43,106 nucleotides of DNA from a virus. This document shows positions 3,682 through 42,713 of this stretch, piece after piece. The position numbers and the translations under genes were made by a program. The notes beneath the pieces were generated by a model. The model was not told the DNA's origin. It did not search any database and was given only the letters and a program-made list of their open reading frames with translations. The stretch lies in IMG/VR virus record IMGVR_UViG_3300037993_000065, positions 1 to 43,106 of that record, one strand, 5' to 3'. How positions within the stretch are numbered: position 1 is the stretch's first letter; every line of letters starts with the position of its first letter.

Positions 3682-5820
3682 TTGGCTAATCATAAACTCG
3701 CTGCGCTCTCCCGCGATGCTGCCGCAAAGGGCAAGCTGTGGATTCCTGAGTACCACTCCATATCCAACATTGACGGGTTCAACTCACACTATGACGCTCT
3801 GTCGAAACGCGCCGAGCGTGACGGGGTGGACGTGGAACTGGGACAGGCAGAGGAAGATTGGATATTCAACGAGTACAGCATTTGCGCCTGTGACTACCGC
3901 TACTGGTCTGAGAAGTACGCCAAGATCAACGACGGCGGAGATATTATACGGTTCCAACGCCGAGCATCCCAGTCCATGCTGGTCGATATGTGGGGCGACA
4001 GGCAGGAGAAGGGATACGCCATTGAGCAGCAGGTGTTGAAGGCCCGTCAGCAGGGAATTTCGACTGAGGTAGAGCTTGCCATCACCCACCTGGTGAACTT
4101 CGGCGTAGGAGTCAAGGCGGCGATTGCCAGCTACGATTCAGACGCTTGCGAGCGCATGGGCGGCATGATGGACTTGGCTTTCAATGAAATTCCTCAGTGG
4201 ATGAGGGCCACCCCAACGTCGAACCGAGCAGGATCGCTCTACGCCTTCTCTGCCATCAATACTCGCCTGACGTTCTATTCAGGCCGCAAGGCTTCCGGTA
4301 TCGCTCGCGGTGACACGCCTAACGTCATTCATATCAGCGAGGTAGCATCCTTCCCCGATGCTGAAAACATCATTGAAAACTCGCTTTTTCAGTCGGTCCA
4401 CCCCAAAGCCAACACGTTTATGATCCTCGAATCGACTGGCGAGGGCAACACAAACTGGTGGGCGAAGACTTGGTACTCCAGCCGCGACTTCTGGGAGACG
4501 GGCGGGGCGAGACTACAGCCAGTGTTCTTCCCGTGGTTCATCGCCAGTGATTTGTTCCCTACCCCTGATTGGAGGCGTGAGCATCCCGTCCCGCGCCAAT
4601 GGTCTCCAATCACCGAGACACGAAAGATGATGGAGAAGGCGGCTTCCTACGTCCACCAGACCCCGACGATTCGTAAGTTTCTGGGCGACAAGTGGCGGAT
4701 GCCGGACTGGCAAGCATACTTCTGGGAAGTGAAGTTCTTGGAGTACAGGCGCAAGGGAAACGAAAAAGGTTGGCTGCAAGAGATGCCGATGGACGATATA
4801 GAGGCCCTTCAGCCTAAAAAAGACCTCGTATTTGACCTGACAGAAGTCCAGACCCAAGAGAAGCACCGCCCACAGTACACAGCATGGGCTATCGTCGGGC
4901 AGCAGATTCAGGAGAAGTGGTGGCCAAACGATCACGAGATCGACTTCGACACTCCACGGTTCTCAGTCACTTACGACGGCCATATTCACGACCTGCGCGG
5001 AAGAGAAAATCGCACGTTCGAGTGGGAGTTTGTTCCCCTGAAGCAGCCTGTGGAAAAAGGGATTGACATCTTCGACGCAAACGAAAAGTGTCTCATCTCC
5101 GACTGGCCGCGTGAGGGTTGGGAATACTCCATAGGCGTGGACAACGGCGAAGGTGTCGGCAAAGACAACACCGTGATTACGGTCTGCGGCAAGTCCATGT
5201 TTACGAACGAGCCTGACCGCCAAGTGTGCGAGTTCGTTTCCAACCGAATTGATCCTGCTTTTACGCACCCCTACGTCATGGCGATTGCGTCTCTGTACAA
5301 GGCGTGTATGCCAGAGGGCAAAGAGCCTCTGGTAGCCATTGAGCAGGTCTATGGATTGGGCGAGACAACCCAGATTCAGATGAAGTCGATGGGGTACAAG
5401 CGGTTCTACAACTTCACTCGACTGGACGGCAAAAACCCAGAGGCAGACAAGAAAAAGTCAAAGCGAACTGGCTGGTTCACTACTGAATGGAGTCGTCCAT
5501 TCATGCTGACTCTGTTTCGTAACGCCGTGCATAATCATTGGTTTAAGCTGTTTTCACCGCATCTTTTGAAGAACGAGATGCCGAGCTACCAGATCGACCA
5601 GACGGCGACGGGCAAGGTGCGGTTTGACCATGAATCCAACAAGCATGATGACCGGATTGTGGCCTCGGCCATATCCTTTGTTGTGCTGAATGACACAGAA
5701 AGTATGACGCGAAGGCTGGAATCGGTCTATTCTGATGAAGAGGAACAAGTTGAAATTGACTACAGCTACCCAACAGTGTCGCAGAGGATAGCAGAGATGG
5801 AGGAAGCACTTGAGTCTTGA
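3682..5820 (+). CDS. terL: Terminase large subunit (packaging ATPase and nuclease)
   Basis: It drives DNA translocation into the procapsid and cuts the concatemer. Counting from the TTG, a terminase-type Walker A (KARQQGIST) lies near residues 120-128. Walker B (VIHISE) has the catalytic Glu near 220, and the coupling motif ESTGEG is near 250. The nuclease acidic residues are in IGVDNGEG (Asp about 487), VAIEQVYG (about 554) and HDDRIVAS (about 656-657). At 712 aa it is longer than average. The start is unusual: there is no in-frame ATG or GTG near the 5' end. TTG 3682 is 20 nt from the only ribosome site (GGGAGG, 3656-3661), whereas an ATT at 3667 lies 5 nt from it. Confidence 0.93.
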   Translation: MANHKLAALSRDAAAKGKLWIPEYHSISNIDGFNSHYDALSKRAERDGVDVELGQAEEDWIFNEYSICACDYRYWSEKYAKINDGGDIIRFQRRASQSMLVDMWGDRQEKGYAIEQQVLKARQQGISTEVELAITHLVNFGVGVKAAIASYDSDACERMGGMMDLAFNEIPQWMRATPTSNRAGSLYAFSAINTRLTFYSGRKASGIARGDTPNVIHISEVASFPDAENIIENSLFQSVHPKANTFMILESTGEGNTNWWAKTWYSSRDFWETGGARLQPVFFPWFIASDLFPTPDWRREHPVPRQWSPITETRKMMEKAASYVHQTPTIRKFLGDKWRMPDWQAYFWEVKFLEYRRKGNEKGWLQEMPMDDIEALQPKKDLVFDLTEVQTQEKHRPQYTAWAIVGQQIQEKWWPNDHEIDFDTPRFSVTYDGHIHDLRGRENRTFEWEFVPLKQPVEKGIDIFDANEKCLISDWPREGWEYSIGVDNGEGVGKDNTVITVCGKSMFTNEPDRQVCEFVSNRIDPAFTHPYVMAIASLYKACMPEGKEPLVAIEQVYGLGETTQIQMKSMGYKRFYNFTRLDGKNPEADKKKSKRTGWFTTEWSRPFMLTLFRNAVHNHWFKLFSPHLLKNEMPSYQIDQTATGKVRFDHESNKHDDRIVASAISFVVLNDTESMTRRLESVYSDEEEQVEIDYSYPTVSQRIAEMEEALES

Positions 5821-6262
5821 ACTGATGAAGCATCAGCAACCCGACGATTGGACCCGCGAGAACGGCAAGGAAAAGCTCTGGTGGCAGGAGAACGCCGTAG
5901 GCCGGGTGTTTCTGTCGTCTCCGATGAGTCGGCTGGCCGTCGGATATGTGCTCAAGTCCACGACCAGCCCCCGCGAAATGGACCGCATCTATGACAAGCT
6001 GAATGCTCAGGAGCGCGAGCATAATCAGCAGCTTTTGGATGACCTGTTCAACCGCGACCGGGCCACGTACGACGCAACGCGCTCTAAACTGATGACCAAA
6101 CTGGCATCCGGCGCATCGAACGCAGAAAAGAACCTCATCCGAGAGGCTCTGAAACTGATGGACGCAAAGGAAGAGAAGATGCGAAAGAACTCTGTAACCG
6201 GAGTGGCGGATATTCAGGAGCATGAAGCAAACAACGGCCCGAAGACGACAAAGGTGATGTGA
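5810..6262 (+). CDS. Hypothetical helical protein between terminase and portal
   Basis: The start is TTG 5810, with GGAGG at 5799-5803 (6-nt spacing) and overlap with the terminase stop; the first ATG (5825) has no ribosome site. The 150-aa product has an N-terminal Trp-rich part (KLWWQENAVGRVF) and long charged helices (AQEREHNQQLLDDLF, REALKLMDAKEEKMRKN). Family not recognised. Position between terL and portal suggests a head-assembly or packaging accessory. Confidence 0.7.
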   Translation: MSLELMKHQQPDDWTRENGKEKLWWQENAVGRVFLSSPMSRLAVGYVLKSTTSPREMDRIYDKLNAQEREHNQQLLDDLFNRDRATYDATRSKLMTKLASGASNAEKNLIREALKLMDAKEEKMRKNSVTGVADIQEHEANNGPKTTKVM

Positions 6263-6566
6263 TGGCAGAAGAATTTGTGAGCGCCGTATCGTTTACGGAT
6301 TACGACAAAGCCCAACTTAAAGCAATGGGCCGCGATTCGAATTTTGCCATAGTAACCACTGTGTGGACCGGGCATTTAAGGTGGGAGCCAGACGAAGATC
6401 CAGTATCAAATATCCCCGTCGAGCGCACCGTCGAGCCTCGATGGAAAAAGAATCTGAAGTCGCTACGGTATCGGTGGTGGGAGTTCTTCTACTATTACGA
6501 GCGGACGATGAACAGAATTGCACGAGTAATTGGCGTTGATCTGTACGCTTGAGGTGATGTGATGGC
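6252..6566. repeat. Perfect 15-bp direct repeats bracketing the 97-aa gene
   Basis: AGGTGATGTGATGGC occurs at 6252-6266 and again at 6552-6566, exactly 300 bp apart. Each copy holds the ribosome-site-like AGGTG and the start codon of the following gene (the 97-aa gene and the portal gene). Recombination between them would remove the small gene exactly and keep the portal start intact. Confidence 0.85.
6262..6552 (+). CDS. Hypothetical 96-aa protein in a removable cassette
   Basis: ATG 6262 overlaps the upstream stop (TGATG); GTG 6259 is an alternative start. The product (MAEEFVSAVSF...) has a basic aromatic C-terminal half (WKKNLKSLRYRWWEFFYYY) that may be amphipathic or membrane-associated. 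The gene lies between the two 15-bp direct repeats and so looks like an inserted cassette. Family not recognised. Confidence 0.65.
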   Translation: MAEEFVSAVSFTDYDKAQLKAMGRDSNFAIVTTVWTGHLRWEPDEDPVSNIPVERTVEPRWKKNLKSLRYRWWEFFYYYERTMNRIARVIGVDLYA

Positions 6567-8703
6567 TTTGAATAACAACGCAGAAGTACAGTGGCAATGC
6601 CCGGTGTTTGAGACTCCAGACGTAGACAAGCTGGCGTTTCTCAAACGCATGGTCGAAGACGGCATGACCTGGCAGCGGGAGAACTGCGATCAGGACATTG
6701 TGGGCCGCGCCATCAACATCCTCTCTGGCAAGACTGGTTCTGCCAAGTCGTCAAAGTGGGCGAAGTTCACTACAGGCGACCTGAAACGGGCTGTGCTGGA
6801 GATCATCGAGACGCTATCCGACATTCGCCCGTATTGGGGATACGCGACGGACAACAAGGCATTCAAGAGCCAAGCCGACATGATGAGCAAGGTGGCTAAG
6901 TCCATTTACCTTGAGTCATTCGTTGACCGCGCCTTGAAGGAAGCCTTGCAGTTTGCCGCTATCACTGGGGCCGGATTCCTATATCCCAAGTACACGCGCT
7001 CGATGTACGGCATGGGAGAGGGGCAGTTTGAGTTTGTGGCTCTCGGCCAGAATGACGTGTTGCCGATCCAGCTTCCGCGTGACAAGAACTACCAGAAAGC
7101 GTACATCGTCACCATCGTATGCCCGACTGGAGTAGCGGAGGCTCATGCACGGTTCCCGAACTACCAGCAATACCTCAAGCCAATGGCGAAGAAGCGGTAT
7201 TCGCGCAGCCAAGGCGGGGAAGAGTCCAACATTCCGGCGCAGAGACGGTGGGACATTAACCGATTTGCCATGCACGGCTTGAGCCTTGAACACTTCTGCG
7301 ACATCTACTACACCTACGTTCTCGACGTGAGAATCAATTACGGGGAAGTGGATGCAGAGGGCAAGCCAGTTCTTGATGCCGAAGGGAATCCTATTGGCAA
7401 AGAACTGGAAATGGGCCAGAAAGACACGTCTTGGTACTACAAGGTGCCATACGTCGGCCAAAGCATCACGAGGTTTGAGAATGGGCGCGAGGTCACACGG
7501 GCGGCGACGGAAGACGACTCCCGCGTGTACCCGAATCGCCGATTGATGATTCACTGCGATGACGCTCTGATGTACGACGGTCCCGCGTTTGACTGGCACG
7601 GCATGGTTCCGCTGCTGCCGTTTTTCCTCGACGAATGGGCTTGGGAGCAGACCGGATACAGCCTGTTCAAAGGCACGGCGAATACTCAGGACGCAATCGA
7701 CGATCTCATCCGGTCCATCTACCGCGTGGCAATGGCAAGGGCGAACCCAGGAAAAGCCTACAATATGGACGTGATTACCGGAGAAAAAGGCGGAAAGCTC
7801 ACCAGCCGTCAGGCCGAGGCACTGGACCCGTTCGATCCTGGATTCACAGTTGGAGTAGATGGGGAAGTCAAGGACGCGATTCTCAAGCCACCTATGCCGG
7901 AGTGGTGCTATAACGTGCCGGAATGGGTAATGAAGGTGGTCGAAGTGCTGGCTCAGTCGATCCAGCGTCAGCTTGGACTCGATCAGATCAAGTCGCTTGA
8001 AAAGCTGCGCGGAAACGTCTCTGACCCAGAAAAGCTGCTCGATGCGGAAGGGCCAATCGTCATGGGCACCTCGCGTTCGATGGAGCGCAGCTTACGCGAT
8101 CTTGGCGAAATGATGAAGTTCCTGATTATCCAATATATGCCCACAGGCCGCATCATGCAGTATGTGGGAGCTACTGGGATTGCGCCGGAGGTGTTCGACT
8201 ACGCACCAGATAGCGTCATTCCCTCACATTTGCCAGGAGAGGCGACGACAGACGCGGAAGGCGCGTTACTGTCATCGAAGACCGACCCGTGGCTTAGAGC
8301 CAAAACCTTTGCCAAGAACCTGCGTTTCTTTATCACTCCTCACTCGCTCCACTACATCGCTCAGGCGCAACAGCGGTTGAACCTTCTGGCATTGATTGGC
8401 AAAGGTGTGCCGATGGACCCGCAGACCATCGCGGAGCAGTTCGACGTTCCGAACTGGGGCAGCATCGACGGTGCGACAGTCAAGGAAAGAGTCTTCGAGT
8501 GGGCCAAAGAGCAACTGATGGAAAAGGCGGAACTCGCAAAACTGGCAAAGGCTCTTGGGTTTGGGCAGGAAGAAGAGGGTGGCGGAAAGCCTGGTCCTGC
8601 TCCCGGTCATGGCGGCGCACCGCCGAAGAAGCCAGGTCAGGGGCAGATTAGGCAGAAGGGAATAGCGTCCGGCGGAAGAGTCGTGAACGCAACAACGAAG
8701 TGA
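6562..8703 (+). CDS. Portal protein
   Basis: The 713-aa product follows the terminase, as expected for the dodecameric portal that forms the DNA entry vertex. Its length is close to that of P22 gp1 (about 725 aa). The N-terminal part (WQRENCDQDIVGRAINILSG) and helices around NTQDAIDDLIRSIYRVAMARANPG fit portal wing and crown regions. A long helix near SMERSLRDLGEMMKF would be the stem. The tail is Gly/Pro/Lys-rich and probably disordered. ATG 6562 is preferred over GTG 6559. Family assignment comes from position, size and general pattern. Confidence 0.85.
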   Translation: MALNNNAEVQWQCPVFETPDVDKLAFLKRMVEDGMTWQRENCDQDIVGRAINILSGKTGSAKSSKWAKFTTGDLKRAVLEIIETLSDIRPYWGYATDNKAFKSQADMMSKVAKSIYLESFVDRALKEALQFAAITGAGFLYPKYTRSMYGMGEGQFEFVALGQNDVLPIQLPRDKNYQKAYIVTIVCPTGVAEAHARFPNYQQYLKPMAKKRYSRSQGGEESNIPAQRRWDINRFAMHGLSLEHFCDIYYTYVLDVRINYGEVDAEGKPVLDAEGNPIGKELEMGQKDTSWYYKVPYVGQSITRFENGREVTRAATEDDSRVYPNRRLMIHCDDALMYDGPAFDWHGMVPLLPFFLDEWAWEQTGYSLFKGTANTQDAIDDLIRSIYRVAMARANPGKAYNMDVITGEKGGKLTSRQAEALDPFDPGFTVGVDGEVKDAILKPPMPEWCYNVPEWVMKVVEVLAQSIQRQLGLDQIKSLEKLRGNVSDPEKLLDAEGPIVMGTSRSMERSLRDLGEMMKFLIIQYMPTGRIMQYVGATGIAPEVFDYAPDSVIPSHLPGEATTDAEGALLSSKTDPWLRAKTFAKNLRFFITPHSLHYIAQAQQRLNLLALIGKGVPMDPQTIAEQFDVPNWGSIDGATVKERVFEWAKEQLMEKAELAKLAKALGFGQEEEGGGKPGPAPGHGGAPPKKPGQGQIRQKGIASGGRVVNATTK

Positions 8704-10336: not shown

Positions 10337-11551
10337 ATGCCTGCTCTCGCACCTCTCTTTCCAGAGCTAACAGCCACTACTCTCAACGAGTTAGTGGACA
10401 ATTTTGTGTGGCAAAACAGCTACATTGAGACAGCTCTTCTGCGTTATTTCAGGGCTTCGGGCGCGTTCGATCCGTTCGGCGGCGGCGCTGCCATGCAGGT
10501 GCCTCAGATTTACCAGGGTGCGCCTGGTGGTTCGCTGTTCCCCGGTGAGGACGTGACGATCACCAACCAGCAGGTTGTGACCGCTGGTACGTTCATCCCG
10601 AAGTTCTACGACAAGTATTACCTCATCAACGAGTTCACGATTGAGGTCCAGAACACGGGCCCCGAAGCCAAGATTTCGTTGCTGGAGACCTACCTCAATC
10701 AGATGATAGAAGGCATCGACTTCCAGATTGAGGGCGATTGGTTCCGTCACGGTCAGGCTGCCGGGAACGGTGTCAACGACGACCGACTTTCGGCAATCAA
10801 TGGTTTTTCGGAAGCGGTCAATGACGGCGTGACCCCCTCGTGGGATGGAAACGTATTCCCCACCTACGGCGGCGAGACTCGCAACGGCGCAATAGGAGCG
10901 TCTTTGAACTCCACTCCGATTTGGCTTGGCGATCAGTCGGGCAACCCGGCACCTCCGAACTACCAGACGATGCTGAAGACGTACAAGACCCCGATTGGCC
11001 GCCCGACTTTGGGCGTGACCAGCTATATCGGATACTCGTCCATCGCCGCTGTGTTCCAGCGTCAGCAGCGTTACGAGGTCCGCAACGACCAGAACATCAA
11101 CTGGTCCGGTATCAAGTTCGAGGATGCGACGATCTTCGATGATGATATTGTCCCGTCGAGCACACCGAAGGTGACCATCGCCAATCTGTTCTACTCGCCC
11201 AACGGGCAAGCCGCTTCGCCTGGAGCGATTCAGACCGGGCAGTTTACCTTGACGGCGGCGATGCTGGCGAACCAGCAGTACAGCGGACTTCCGAGCCTCG
11301 GATTCACCTCGAAGGCAACCCCCACACTGTCGGGCGGCTCGAACACAATCGTGGTTGGTGAGCCTCTGTTCTGGCTGGATGTGAACTCTTGGAAGTATCG
11401 TCCCGCGAAGAGCGAGAAGTTCAACTATCACCTGATGGACCCGCTGTACTGGCCGAACAATCCAACCAACTTTGTTCAGCACTTGCGTCACTCGCTGAAC
11501 TCGTACACAGGTGTCCCGCGCCGCCACGTCCAGTGCTACGGCATCCGGTAA
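10337..11551 (+). CDS. Major capsid protein
   Basis: The 404-aa protein follows the scaffold gene and has a strong ribosome site (AAGGAG). It would form the HK97-fold shell. Visible features are the N-terminal helix (TATTLNELVDNFVWQNSYIETALLRYF), a glycine-rich turn (FDPFGGGAAM), and VTAGTFIPKFYDKYYLINEFTIE, which resembles the P-domain and E-loop region of shell proteins. Near the end, VQHLRHSLNSYTGVPRRH is basic. No protease gene is seen, so maturation cleavage is uncertain. Identification rests on order, size and composition. Confidence 0.85.
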   Translation: MPALAPLFPELTATTLNELVDNFVWQNSYIETALLRYFRASGAFDPFGGGAAMQVPQIYQGAPGGSLFPGEDVTITNQQVVTAGTFIPKFYDKYYLINEFTIEVQNTGPEAKISLLETYLNQMIEGIDFQIEGDWFRHGQAAGNGVNDDRLSAINGFSEAVNDGVTPSWDGNVFPTYGGETRNGAIGASLNSTPIWLGDQSGNPAPPNYQTMLKTYKTPIGRPTLGVTSYIGYSSIAAVFQRQQRYEVRNDQNINWSGIKFEDATIFDDDIVPSSTPKVTIANLFYSPNGQAASPGAIQTGQFTLTAAMLANQQYSGLPSLGFTSKATPTLSGGSNTIVVGEPLFWLDVNSWKYRPAKSEKFNYHLMDPLYWPNNPTNFVQHLRHSLNSYTGVPRRHVQCYGIR

Positions 11552-40130: not shown

Positions 40131-40444
40131 GCGAAACAACAGAGATTACCGGGCCCCTGGTCAAGATGATCTGGCAGATGGGGATTTACGCGCTGCGGAT
40201 GAACAGCGGCATGGTGCGCGTGAAGGGCGGCTTCATGCACCTGCACGACAAGGGCACTGCGGATATTCTTGTTTTCTTCAAAACTGGTCGCGTAGTCTGG
40301 CTGGAAACCAAAGACCCGAAAGGAGTTACACAAAAGCAGCGAATCGCAGATCAAGCCGCATTCGCGGAAAAAGTGCGAGATTTAGGGCACGAGTACTATC
40401 TCATCAAAAGCATAGACGAAGGTCTGGCCGCTCTGCGCGGCTAG
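40127..40444 (+). CDS. VRR-NUC-type nuclease
   Basis: The 105-aa product contains the VRR-NUC signatures: ALRMNSGMVRVKGGFM, DKGTADILVF (metal-binding Asp) and WLETKDPKG with the E-x-K, then Gln/Arg in TQKQRIADQ and a final YYLIKS strand. These enzymes cut junctions or flaps. ATG 40127 overlaps the previous stop. It is the last gene of the early operon; an inverted repeat overlaps its stop codon. Confidence 0.85.
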   Translation: MSETTEITGPLVKMIWQMGIYALRMNSGMVRVKGGFMHLHDKGTADILVFFKTGRVVWLETKDPKGVTQKQRIADQAAFAEKVRDLGHEYYLIKSIDEGLAALRG

Positions 40445-40449
40445 CGGCC
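40426..40449 (+). terminator. Hairpin at the end of the early operon
   Basis: GGCCGCT and AGCGGCC form a perfect 7-bp stem with a 10-nt loop over the VRR-NUC stop codon. No T-run follows. It could terminate weakly or stabilise the 3' end. Confidence 0.4.
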
Positions 40450-40454
40450 TAATC

Positions 40455-40495
40455 CGAATAAAAGAGCGGCCCGGTTGCTTTTCAGCTTCCGGGCC
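40455..40495 (-). terminator. Terminator with GAAA tetraloop at the end of the leftward operon
   Basis: On the minus strand GGCCCGG and CCGGGCC enclose AA-GCT-GAAA-AGC-AA: an outer 7-bp stem, a symmetric AA/AA loop and an inner 3-bp stem closed by GAAA. It is followed by GCTCTTTTATT. The U-rich stretch makes this the likely 3' end of the leftward transcript. Confidence 0.6.
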
Positions 40496-41006
40496 ATGTC
40501 GTTGTGATGGGTGTGGGGTTGCTCTCTAAGGAGTGGGCCTAGCAAACCGGAGAGCTGGAGCGTAGCGGCATCCGCCCCACACACTTGCAATCATAGCAAA
40601 AAACATGGTAATATTCAACTGCCTGGCAAATCGTATGCAAGAATTCCTGACAATCCGTTGCAGCACGTCATGGATGCCGTATTCGTGCGCCTGGGCACTT
40701 TCCTTGCGAATGCCTTTTTCTAAGCGTGCGCTGGCCGGTCGGGTATGGGCCTTATCCCCCCATGACGTGCTGCTCAGTTCGCGGACGGCTTTAGGCGCAT
40801 CTCCGGGGCCGTATACGGCCCTCTCACCGAAAACGGGAGCCTGCATGGGGTCAACGTGCAGCGGGAGCAGTGTGACGGGTACAGCGCAGCATCGGGACTG
40901 GGCAACGCTAGTCAGATAGCGATCCCTGCCGATCCTGCGCGTGACGGCGCAGGGCGACACCACGCATAGCAGGAAAGGCAAAGAAGAACTAAAGCCGAAG
41001 GTCTAT

Positions 41007-41069
41007 CTACTCAAAGACTATCTGCGCATCCCGAATAGAGCGCATTTCCTCAACAGAGAGTGCAAGCAC
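41007..41069 (-). CDS. Possible 20-aa peptide with a strong ribosome site
   Basis: GTG at 41069 is preceded by AAGGAGG with 6-nt spacing, and 20 codons (MLALSVEEMRSIRDAQIVFE) end at TAG. The ribosome site can pair in a small hairpin (CTCC...GGAG). It may be a leader peptide ahead of the structured region, or a chance frame inside the RNA. Confidence 0.35.
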   Translation of the reverse strand: MLALSVEEMRSIRDAQIVFE

Positions 41070-41138
41070 TTAATTCCTCCTTAAGGGAGTGGTGATCGAC
41101 GGGCAGACAAGGTTGGTGAAGGTCTACCCGCCGATTGG

Positions 41139-41372
41139 TTAATCGTTGTACCGCTCCCAGCATTCCAAGCACACGTCGCCATGATCTTCCACTGGTGCAT
41201 CACCGCAATCCGAGCAGAACGGACGGCACTTCTCGCACCGCCGCTCACCCGCGTGGTCGTCCAGCATCCACGAGACGACCGGCAGTCCGCATCCACCGCA
41301 GTACCCAACTTCGTCCTCGCGAGCTGGTCGGTCGTCGTCAACAGCGGTTCGGATTCTGGGCCAGTCTGTCAT
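41139..41372 (-). CDS. Multi-CxxC zinc-ribbon protein, 77 aa
   Basis: Four CxxC pairs are visible (YCGGCG, RCEKCR, FCSDCG, VCLECW), enough for two zinc sites. The N-terminus is acidic and basic mixed (WPRIRTAVDDDRP). Such small phage zinc-ribbon proteins usually bind nucleic acid or host proteins. ATG 41372 has AAGGGA upstream and overlaps the previous stop. It is the last sizeable gene of the leftward operon. Confidence 0.75.
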   Translation of the reverse strand: MTDWPRIRTAVDDDRPAREDEVGYCGGCGLPVVSWMLDDHAGERRCEKCRPFCSDCGDAPVEDHGDVCLECWERYND

Positions 41373-41733: not shown

Positions 41734-42465
41734 TCATGCTTGCTCCTTCCCTGGCATCTTCATTCGCAGAGCCGCTGCCTTCGCGAATTCAAATGCGGCT
41801 ACACGATCTTCGCTGCGATCCGATCTATCATCCGGGAAGCTGCTTGGGTTGCTGTTGCGAATTCCGATCTTTTCCCATTCCTCCAGCGATTTGAAAAGAC
41901 AGCCCATGCGTACCCAGCGAGAGCCATCGGCCATCAGCACCGACCACACGTTGAAAGCGTAAAGACCCGCGTAGCCTTTAATCTGTGATACTGGCTTATT
42001 GAGGATTTCCCCCAATGAGACCGTGCATTGGGAGACCGTGCCGCCGGAGACCGTGCCGCCGGAGACCGTGCCGCTGGAGACCGTGCAGCCGGAGACCTTG
42101 CAGTCGGAGACCGTGCAGTGGGAGACCGTGCCGCCGGAGACCTTGCAGTCGGAGACCGTGCAGCCGGAGACCTTGCAGTCGGAGACCATGCAGCCGGAGA
42201 CCATGCAGCCGGAGACCTTGCAGTCGGAGACCTTGCAGTCGGAGACCGTGCAGTAGGAGACCGTGCAGTAGGAGACCTTGCAGTCGGAGACCGTGCAGCC
42301 GGAGACCTTGCAGTAGGAGACCGTGCAGTGGATTGGCAGATCAAAGCCAATCAACTCCACACCTGCGAAGTCACCGCGCCGCCCGGTACTTCTGTCCGCC
42401 AGCCACTTATTGTGCTCAGTGATAATCGCGTCAAATTCATCTTTGCTTAGCTTCCGCTTCCTCAT
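41734..42465 (-). CDS. Cysteine-rich pentapeptide-repeat protein, 243 aa
   Basis: ATG 42465 overlaps the upstream stop (ATGA), with AAAGGAG upstream; the frame from 42666 is a shadow extension. After an N-terminal helix (KLSKDEFDAIITEHNKWLAD) come 21 five-residue repeats of the form C-(T/K/M)-V-S-(D/G/Y). Cys fills the first place in 17 repeats and Gly in four. Pentapeptide repeats fold as a four-sided beta-helix; here a ladder of Cys would line one position. The C-terminal domain (VWSVLMADGSRWVRMGCLFKSLEEWEKIGIRNSN) recurs, as I recall, in other phage repeat proteins. Function unknown. Confidence 0.75.
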   Translation of the reverse strand: MRKRKLSKDEFDAIITEHNKWLADRSTGRRGDFAGVELIGFDLPIHCTVSYCKVSGCTVSDCKVSYCTVSYCTVSDCKVSDCKVSGCMVSGCMVSDCKVSGCTVSDCKVSGGTVSHCTVSDCKVSGCTVSSGTVSGGTVSGGTVSQCTVSLGEILNKPVSQIKGYAGLYAFNVWSVLMADGSRWVRMGCLFKSLEEWEKIGIRNSNPSSFPDDRSDRSEDRVAAFEFAKAAALRMKMPGKEQA

Positions 42466-42713
42466 GCCATCTCCTTTGTTTTCTGCGTAAAAACATGGTC
42501 GTACAATCCACTCGCCGCCATTTCGCCAAGTGCCGAGCGTACCTGCTCTGTGCGTTCCGCCTCGCTCATCATTGCCTGAAGCTGCATTTCGCGATAGCGC
42601 ATGGACCGCCGCCGTGCTGCTGCTTGTTCTTGCGGTGTGGCGGCTTGATTCACCGCCAGGTCGCACGTTGCCGCTATTTCGCCGAAAAGCTCCACCAGAT
42701 CAATCATCGTCAT
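42462..42713 (-). CDS. Hypothetical helical protein, 83 aa
   Basis: GGGAGG precedes two possible starts: ATG 42713 (3 nt away) and ATG 42707 (9 nt away, more likely). The product (IDLVELFGEIAATCDLA...) is helical, with a charged middle (EQAAARRRSMRYREMQLQAMM). No family recognised. It links the repeat-protein paralogue and the pentapeptide gene by close spacing and an ATGA overlap. Confidence 0.65.
   Translation of the reverse strand: MTMIDLVELFGEIAATCDLAVNQAATPQEQAAARRRSMRYREMQLQAMMSEAERTEQVRSALGEMAASGLYDHVFTQKTKEMA

Follow-up and report, generated by a model that had tools for sequence, protein, structure and literature searches.

The window analyzed here comprises an entire virus record (43,106 bases), a soil-type phage genome. 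In its ORF map, a plus-strand gene ends at 40444 and a minus-strand gene occupies 41139-41372, and the initial annotation had described the interval between them as a candidate new large structured RNA, rich in inverted repeats, devoid of convincing frames and read, with the strand not settled, preferably on the minus strand. The open reading frames of this interval indeed lacked Pfam or PHROGs support. The inverted repeats were likewise confirmed in the sequence: a perfect 14-bp pair at 40660-40673/40760-40773 with 86 nt between its arms, a set at 40511-40582 that includes GTGTGGGG/CCCCACAC (40511-40518/40575-40582), and a 14-bp stem at 41095-41135.

The density of these repeats, which had been taken as a sign of RNA, is unsupported in that role. 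The region is not uniformly rich in stem-loops. When folding energies were compared with those of shuffled sequences in 130-nt windows, the parts at 40401-40584, ~40861-41010 and 41081-41135 folded better than shuffled, whereas ~40521-40860 lay at or above the shuffled energy on both strands. For the whole region, the folding z was -1.6 on the plus strand and -3.6 on the minus strand (only 20 shuffles), and the RNA proper, as delimited below, reached only -1.25 by itself. Folding energy neither proves nor refutes the RNA; covariation across relatives does prove it.

Relatives in other phage contigs

The protein encoded upstream (endonuclease/Holliday-junction-resolvase PHROGs) led to one other virus contig, in which the element was found (L031/L006). 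Compared with that record, the DNA of the region gave a 70-nt match of 81% identity (E 3.5e-12), located in a gap of ~700 nt between plus-strand genes. A degenerate pattern representing a conserved piece retrieved 12 related contigs out of 25 from IMG/VR, corresponding to six distinct elements besides that of the window; a second pattern, representing a shared internal module, added L044, L045 and L046, and a third, combining promoter and core, added L055, L056 and L057. The resulting 13 distinct elements (window, L022, L016, L019, L031, L010, L008, L044, L045, L046, L055, L056 and L057) are a lower bound, since the patterns were short and exact and would miss members with an altered core; all these virus contigs come from metagenomes, some of them as fragments. 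Another core pattern gave no new members, and a scan for the 14-bp inverted repeat of the window gave no match. When the window and the elements of L022, L031, L045 and L056 served as queries in BLAST searches of phages and plasmids, no real homologue was returned, and one search gave 13 short matches at chance level (E 0.6). A pattern scan of GTDB genomes yielded a single match, in Porphyromonadaceae, which had no flanking conservation and was judged to be due to chance. By sequence comparison, at least twelve other phage contigs hold relatives that share the promoter or the core.

The neighbours of the element in the window, L022 and L044 include Erf-like and/or RecE-like recombination genes as well as pentapeptide-repeat genes. 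In L022, L044 and also L019, the RNA is immediately preceded by a classical pentapeptide-repeat gene. The window itself has, at 41734-42666 on the minus strand, a gene for a pentapeptide/beta-helix-type repeat protein, whose coding DNA is a near-tandem repeat (GGAGACCGTGCAGCC...) at ~42000-42340. In L045 and L046, the element is found towards the small terminase subunit, and L046 has a large terminase assigned to PHROGs other than those of the window; the RNA is thus common to phages with different packaging genes. For the terminase (3682-5820) and the major head protein (10337-11551) of the window, both on the plus strand, the nearest isolate relatives are Tunturiibacter (Acidobacteriota) phages, with 29% and 32% identity, respectively. 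From these distant relatives, we would guess that the host group is Acidobacteriota.

Promoter, strand and extent of the RNA

A sigma70-type promoter was recognized on the plus strand at 40585-40614, with the -35 element TTGCAA (40585-40590), an 18-nt spacer and the extended -10 element TGgTAATAT, in which TAATAT occupies 40609-40614. In the 11 members with a recognizable 5΄ side, the promoter stands at a constant distance from the core; the spacing between -35 and -10 is 16-18 nt, and the pair ends 2-5 nt before a common AAnTG motif. The summed promoter consensus score was 105.5, compared with 76.9 ± 3.0 for shuffled sequences (maximum 85 in 300 shuffles). Individually, the promoter is weak in L010, L031 and L045, and the corresponding region has diverged in L044 and is truncated by the contig end in L046. 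What is conserved is a promoter sequence; its position would place the start of the window RNA near 40621 on the plus strand, ~7 nt past the -10 element.

The plus strand is favoured by two further observations. The wobble pairs of the helices comprised 13 G-U against 4 A-C on this strand, and the alifold z for the window and L022 was -5.2 on the plus strand and -3.6 on the minus strand (100 column shuffles each). Promoter, wobble pairs and best pair alignment all point to the strand opposite to the one initially preferred.

The hairpins at 40468-40495 and 40511-40582, within 40455-40583, had also been counted as part of the RNA. However, they precede the promoter and are not shared by the relatives, which carry other terminator-like hairpins in their place. 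On the minus strand, GCTCTTTTATT comes after the hairpin at 40468-40495. The segment is probably a minus-strand terminator and spacer outside the RNA.

Downstream of the promoter, a constant core of ~48 nt (40649-40696; GACAATYCGTT....CGTCA.GG..nCGC..GCGCCTGGGC) is common to the 11 members. The 14-bp long-range stem of this 5΄ domain (40660-40673/40760-40773) is retained only in part by L022 and L045, and a search for its arms in the relatives showed that it is not conserved as such. The 5΄ domain including this stem is conserved in sequence, with only four double-sided changes (three sequences); the stem and the 5΄ domain fold are thus candidate structures and unproven. The core may pair with a conserved GUGUGACGG, a complementarity spotted by eye only and without covariation.

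From promoter position, core and covarying 3΄ domain, we infer an RNA at about 40621-41050. Its 3΄ end would lie at least at 40997 and possibly as far as the stem ending at 41135. That stem, which separates the RNA from the convergent minus-strand gene, is possibly the end point of both transcripts, but neither of its sides carries a U run. On the minus strand at 41080-41020, opposite the 3΄ end of the RNA, a strong ribosome-binding-like AAGGAGG is followed by a short frame (GTG..., ~20 codons).

Covariation in the 3΄ domain

The 3΄ domains of five members were aligned by sequence alone, blind to structure, and the resulting model, R1, places nine helices at 40785-41008 of the plus strand. The closing helix H1 (40786-40794/40989-40997; inverted repeat CGGCTTTAG/CTAAAGCCG) reads CGGCUUUAG/CUAAAGCCG in the window and GGCUGGGG/CCCCAGCC in L046, and in L022 it ends in GG/CC. 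Within it, a four-way part at 40801-40867 consists of H2 (40801-40804/40864-40867) around hairpins at 40806-40821, 40823-40839 and 40842-40860, and H2 is CUCC/GGAG, AUCC/GGAU or GACC/GGUC depending on the member. The stem AUCGG-GACU-GGG-CAA-CGCUA/UAGCG-AU-CCC-UG-CCGAU at 40891-40933 is missing from L022 and kept by all further members of the type, and the adjoining hairpin H9 (40934-40953) shows double-sided changes in 6 of its 7 pairs.

In this alignment, 28 of 51 pairs had changed on both sides and still paired, compared with 12.6 in shuffled alignments, and none of 500 shuffles reached so high a number. Paired cells amounted to 94.0%, against 75.6% after shuffling; when the pairing partner was slid by one to three columns, they were 36-47% (46.5% at most), and the slid structures gave at most 8 pairs with changes on both sides. 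Unguided RNAalifold returned the same fold, with double-sided changes in 29 of 56 pairs. Compensatory changes beyond both shuffled and slid controls, the general mark of a structured noncoding RNA, were thus found in the 3΄ domain, and we regard a real structured RNA family as almost certain.

The R1 model, built without L016 and L019, found both (E 2.8e-13 and 3.4e-14, respectively). Since a 16-nt internal motif is common to these two and the sequences of the model, these matches are supporting and not fully independent evidence, and the two are too alike to be informative as a pair. One model copy was present per record where any was found. The R1 model had no match in L031, L010, L008, L055, L056 or L057, which share the promoter and the core and have other 3΄ parts; four of these six share a different 3΄ arrangement. 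The fold of an alignment of this C-type (L031, L010, L056 and L057) showed many double-sided changes on both strands together with many broken pairs, and we therefore make no structural claim for its 3΄ domain.

The initial proposal of a new large structured RNA stands with respect to covariation, the conserved promoter, the copies in other phages and the lack of an Rfam match (see below), and gives way on boundaries and favoured strand. It had also held that a folding energy no better than that of shuffled sequence would count against the RNA; applied here, this test would have wrongly discarded it. Inverted repeats read straight from the sequence can lead to a genuine RNA that would go unnoticed if folding energy were the only guide.

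Alternative readings and possible function

That the region is instead a decayed or unrecognized protein gene with incidental stem-loops is extremely unlikely. The window does contain open frames of 104 aa (plus strand) and 151 aa (minus strand), and the first seven members, as judged by eye, have a start codon (ATG, GTG or TTG) lined up at the core. However, no protein family matched, no frame is held open across the members, and on inspection the substitutions in the core fell mostly at first and second codon positions, with none of the excess of third-position changes expected in a conserved frame; nor would coding account for the double-sided compensatory changes. Little credit can also be given to a minus-strand small RNA of ~130 nt (40583-40455). 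Its putative promoter (TTGAAT-17-TATGAT, 40618-40590) faces the GC hairpin at 40495-40468, which is followed by a T-rich tract and would serve as terminator, but one such promoter-like site was found where 1.1 are expected by chance, it overlaps the conserved plus-strand promoter, and no relatives were found. This idea was abandoned after the plus-strand promoter was discovered.

Concerning function, we lean towards a large phage-encoded structured plus-strand RNA with its own sigma70-type promoter, a constant core and a variable 3΄ domain, acting in trans. An RNA of ~380-500 nt would be transcribed from this promoter, its constant 5΄ core might bind some host or phage factor that the carrier phages have in common, and its exchangeable 3΄ domains might set specificity or resist a host countermeasure. 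It is quite possible that the element is rather a long structured 5΄ leader that affects the following phage operon in cis, for example through antitermination or translation control, the window being a rearranged exception. Antitermination of this kind is known from phage HK022, where the put RNA makes RNA polymerase ignore terminators. The promoter directly upstream of the RNA agrees with a leader, and in most relatives the last helix is shortly followed by a plus-strand gene with a plausible ribosome-binding site, the two being separated by no obvious terminator, an arrangement that fits a leader at least as well. By contrast, in the window the RNA is followed only by the convergent minus-strand gene, so that there is nothing evident to regulate in cis; this is what favours action in trans. 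The downstream genes moreover vary among members, and in length and elaboration the RNA far exceeds what a short polymerase-binding element such as put requires. In L008, L031 and L055, the same small gene (MWTPKRFFSPEQVEAAMTARGGFSRQSLAK...), of no assigned family, lies downstream of the RNA. Our preference for a stand-alone RNA over a leader is held by a small margin, one case standing against many.

A replication transcript that primes or opens an origin, as ColE1 RNA II does, would have its own promoter too, and Erf/exonuclease genes are close to the element in the window, L022 and L044, with the cumulative GC skew of the window peaking at ~41 kb. However, the change in skew coincides with a switch of coding strand and is thus not independent, no iterons or initiator genes were tied to the element, and in L045 and L046 it lies near packaging genes, which makes this reading improbable. 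Within the preferred reading of a trans-acting RNA, we advance speculatively a modular arrangement, in which the 5΄ core would dock on one host target, swappable 3΄ domains would diversify under an arms race, and the element would be exchanged horizontally among unrelated phages of one host group.

Comparison with known RNAs

A search of the window and 12 related loci against Rfam 15 at the gathering score returned no RNA family besides tRNAs, the match of the window being one tRNA located elsewhere. At E ≤ 5, the window at 40300-41300 and L006 at 6200-7500 gave tRNAs and weak chance matches only, and none of the covariance models of GOLLD, ROOL and OLE matched in these searches, in agreement with the initial annotation, which could assign the region to neither GOLLD nor ROOL. 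All three are known large RNAs, and those of phages or prophages, GOLLD and ROOL, have no established function (PMC12286853). GOLLD is often over 800 nt long, with a universally conserved 3΄ region and a less conserved 5΄ region, and ROOL, found in phages and prophages, is about 660 nt (PMC12286853). The present family resembles GOLLD in being large, elaborate, phage-encoded and partly conserved, partly variable, but its conserved 5΄ and variable 3΄ parts are the reverse of GOLLD; in addition, the window RNA is shorter, has no adjoining tRNA island and matches no Rfam model. With ROOL, an RNA characterized by pseudoknots and a multimeric cage, it shares the character of a large structured phage RNA, and it differs in having no Rfam match. 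These comparisons cover the models of Rfam 15. Soil-1 and Solibacter-1, candidate structured RNAs reported in 2010 from soil DNA or Solibacter (Weinberg et al.), carry no Rfam accession (PMC2864571); the window RNA could be identical with one of them.

HK022 put has been described as acting in cis on early phage genes (PMC9378689). The window RNA likewise appears, from its sequence, to open a phage transcript, with a promoter just ahead of it. It differs in that its structured part is several times larger than put, and in that no gene follows it in the window; a position ahead of the affected genes, as put has, is plausible in most relatives and not in the window. The known large structured RNAs of phages are few, and the present family adds another, whose clear promoter, tractable core and natural variants with an exchanged 3΄ half make structure and function dissectable by comparison.
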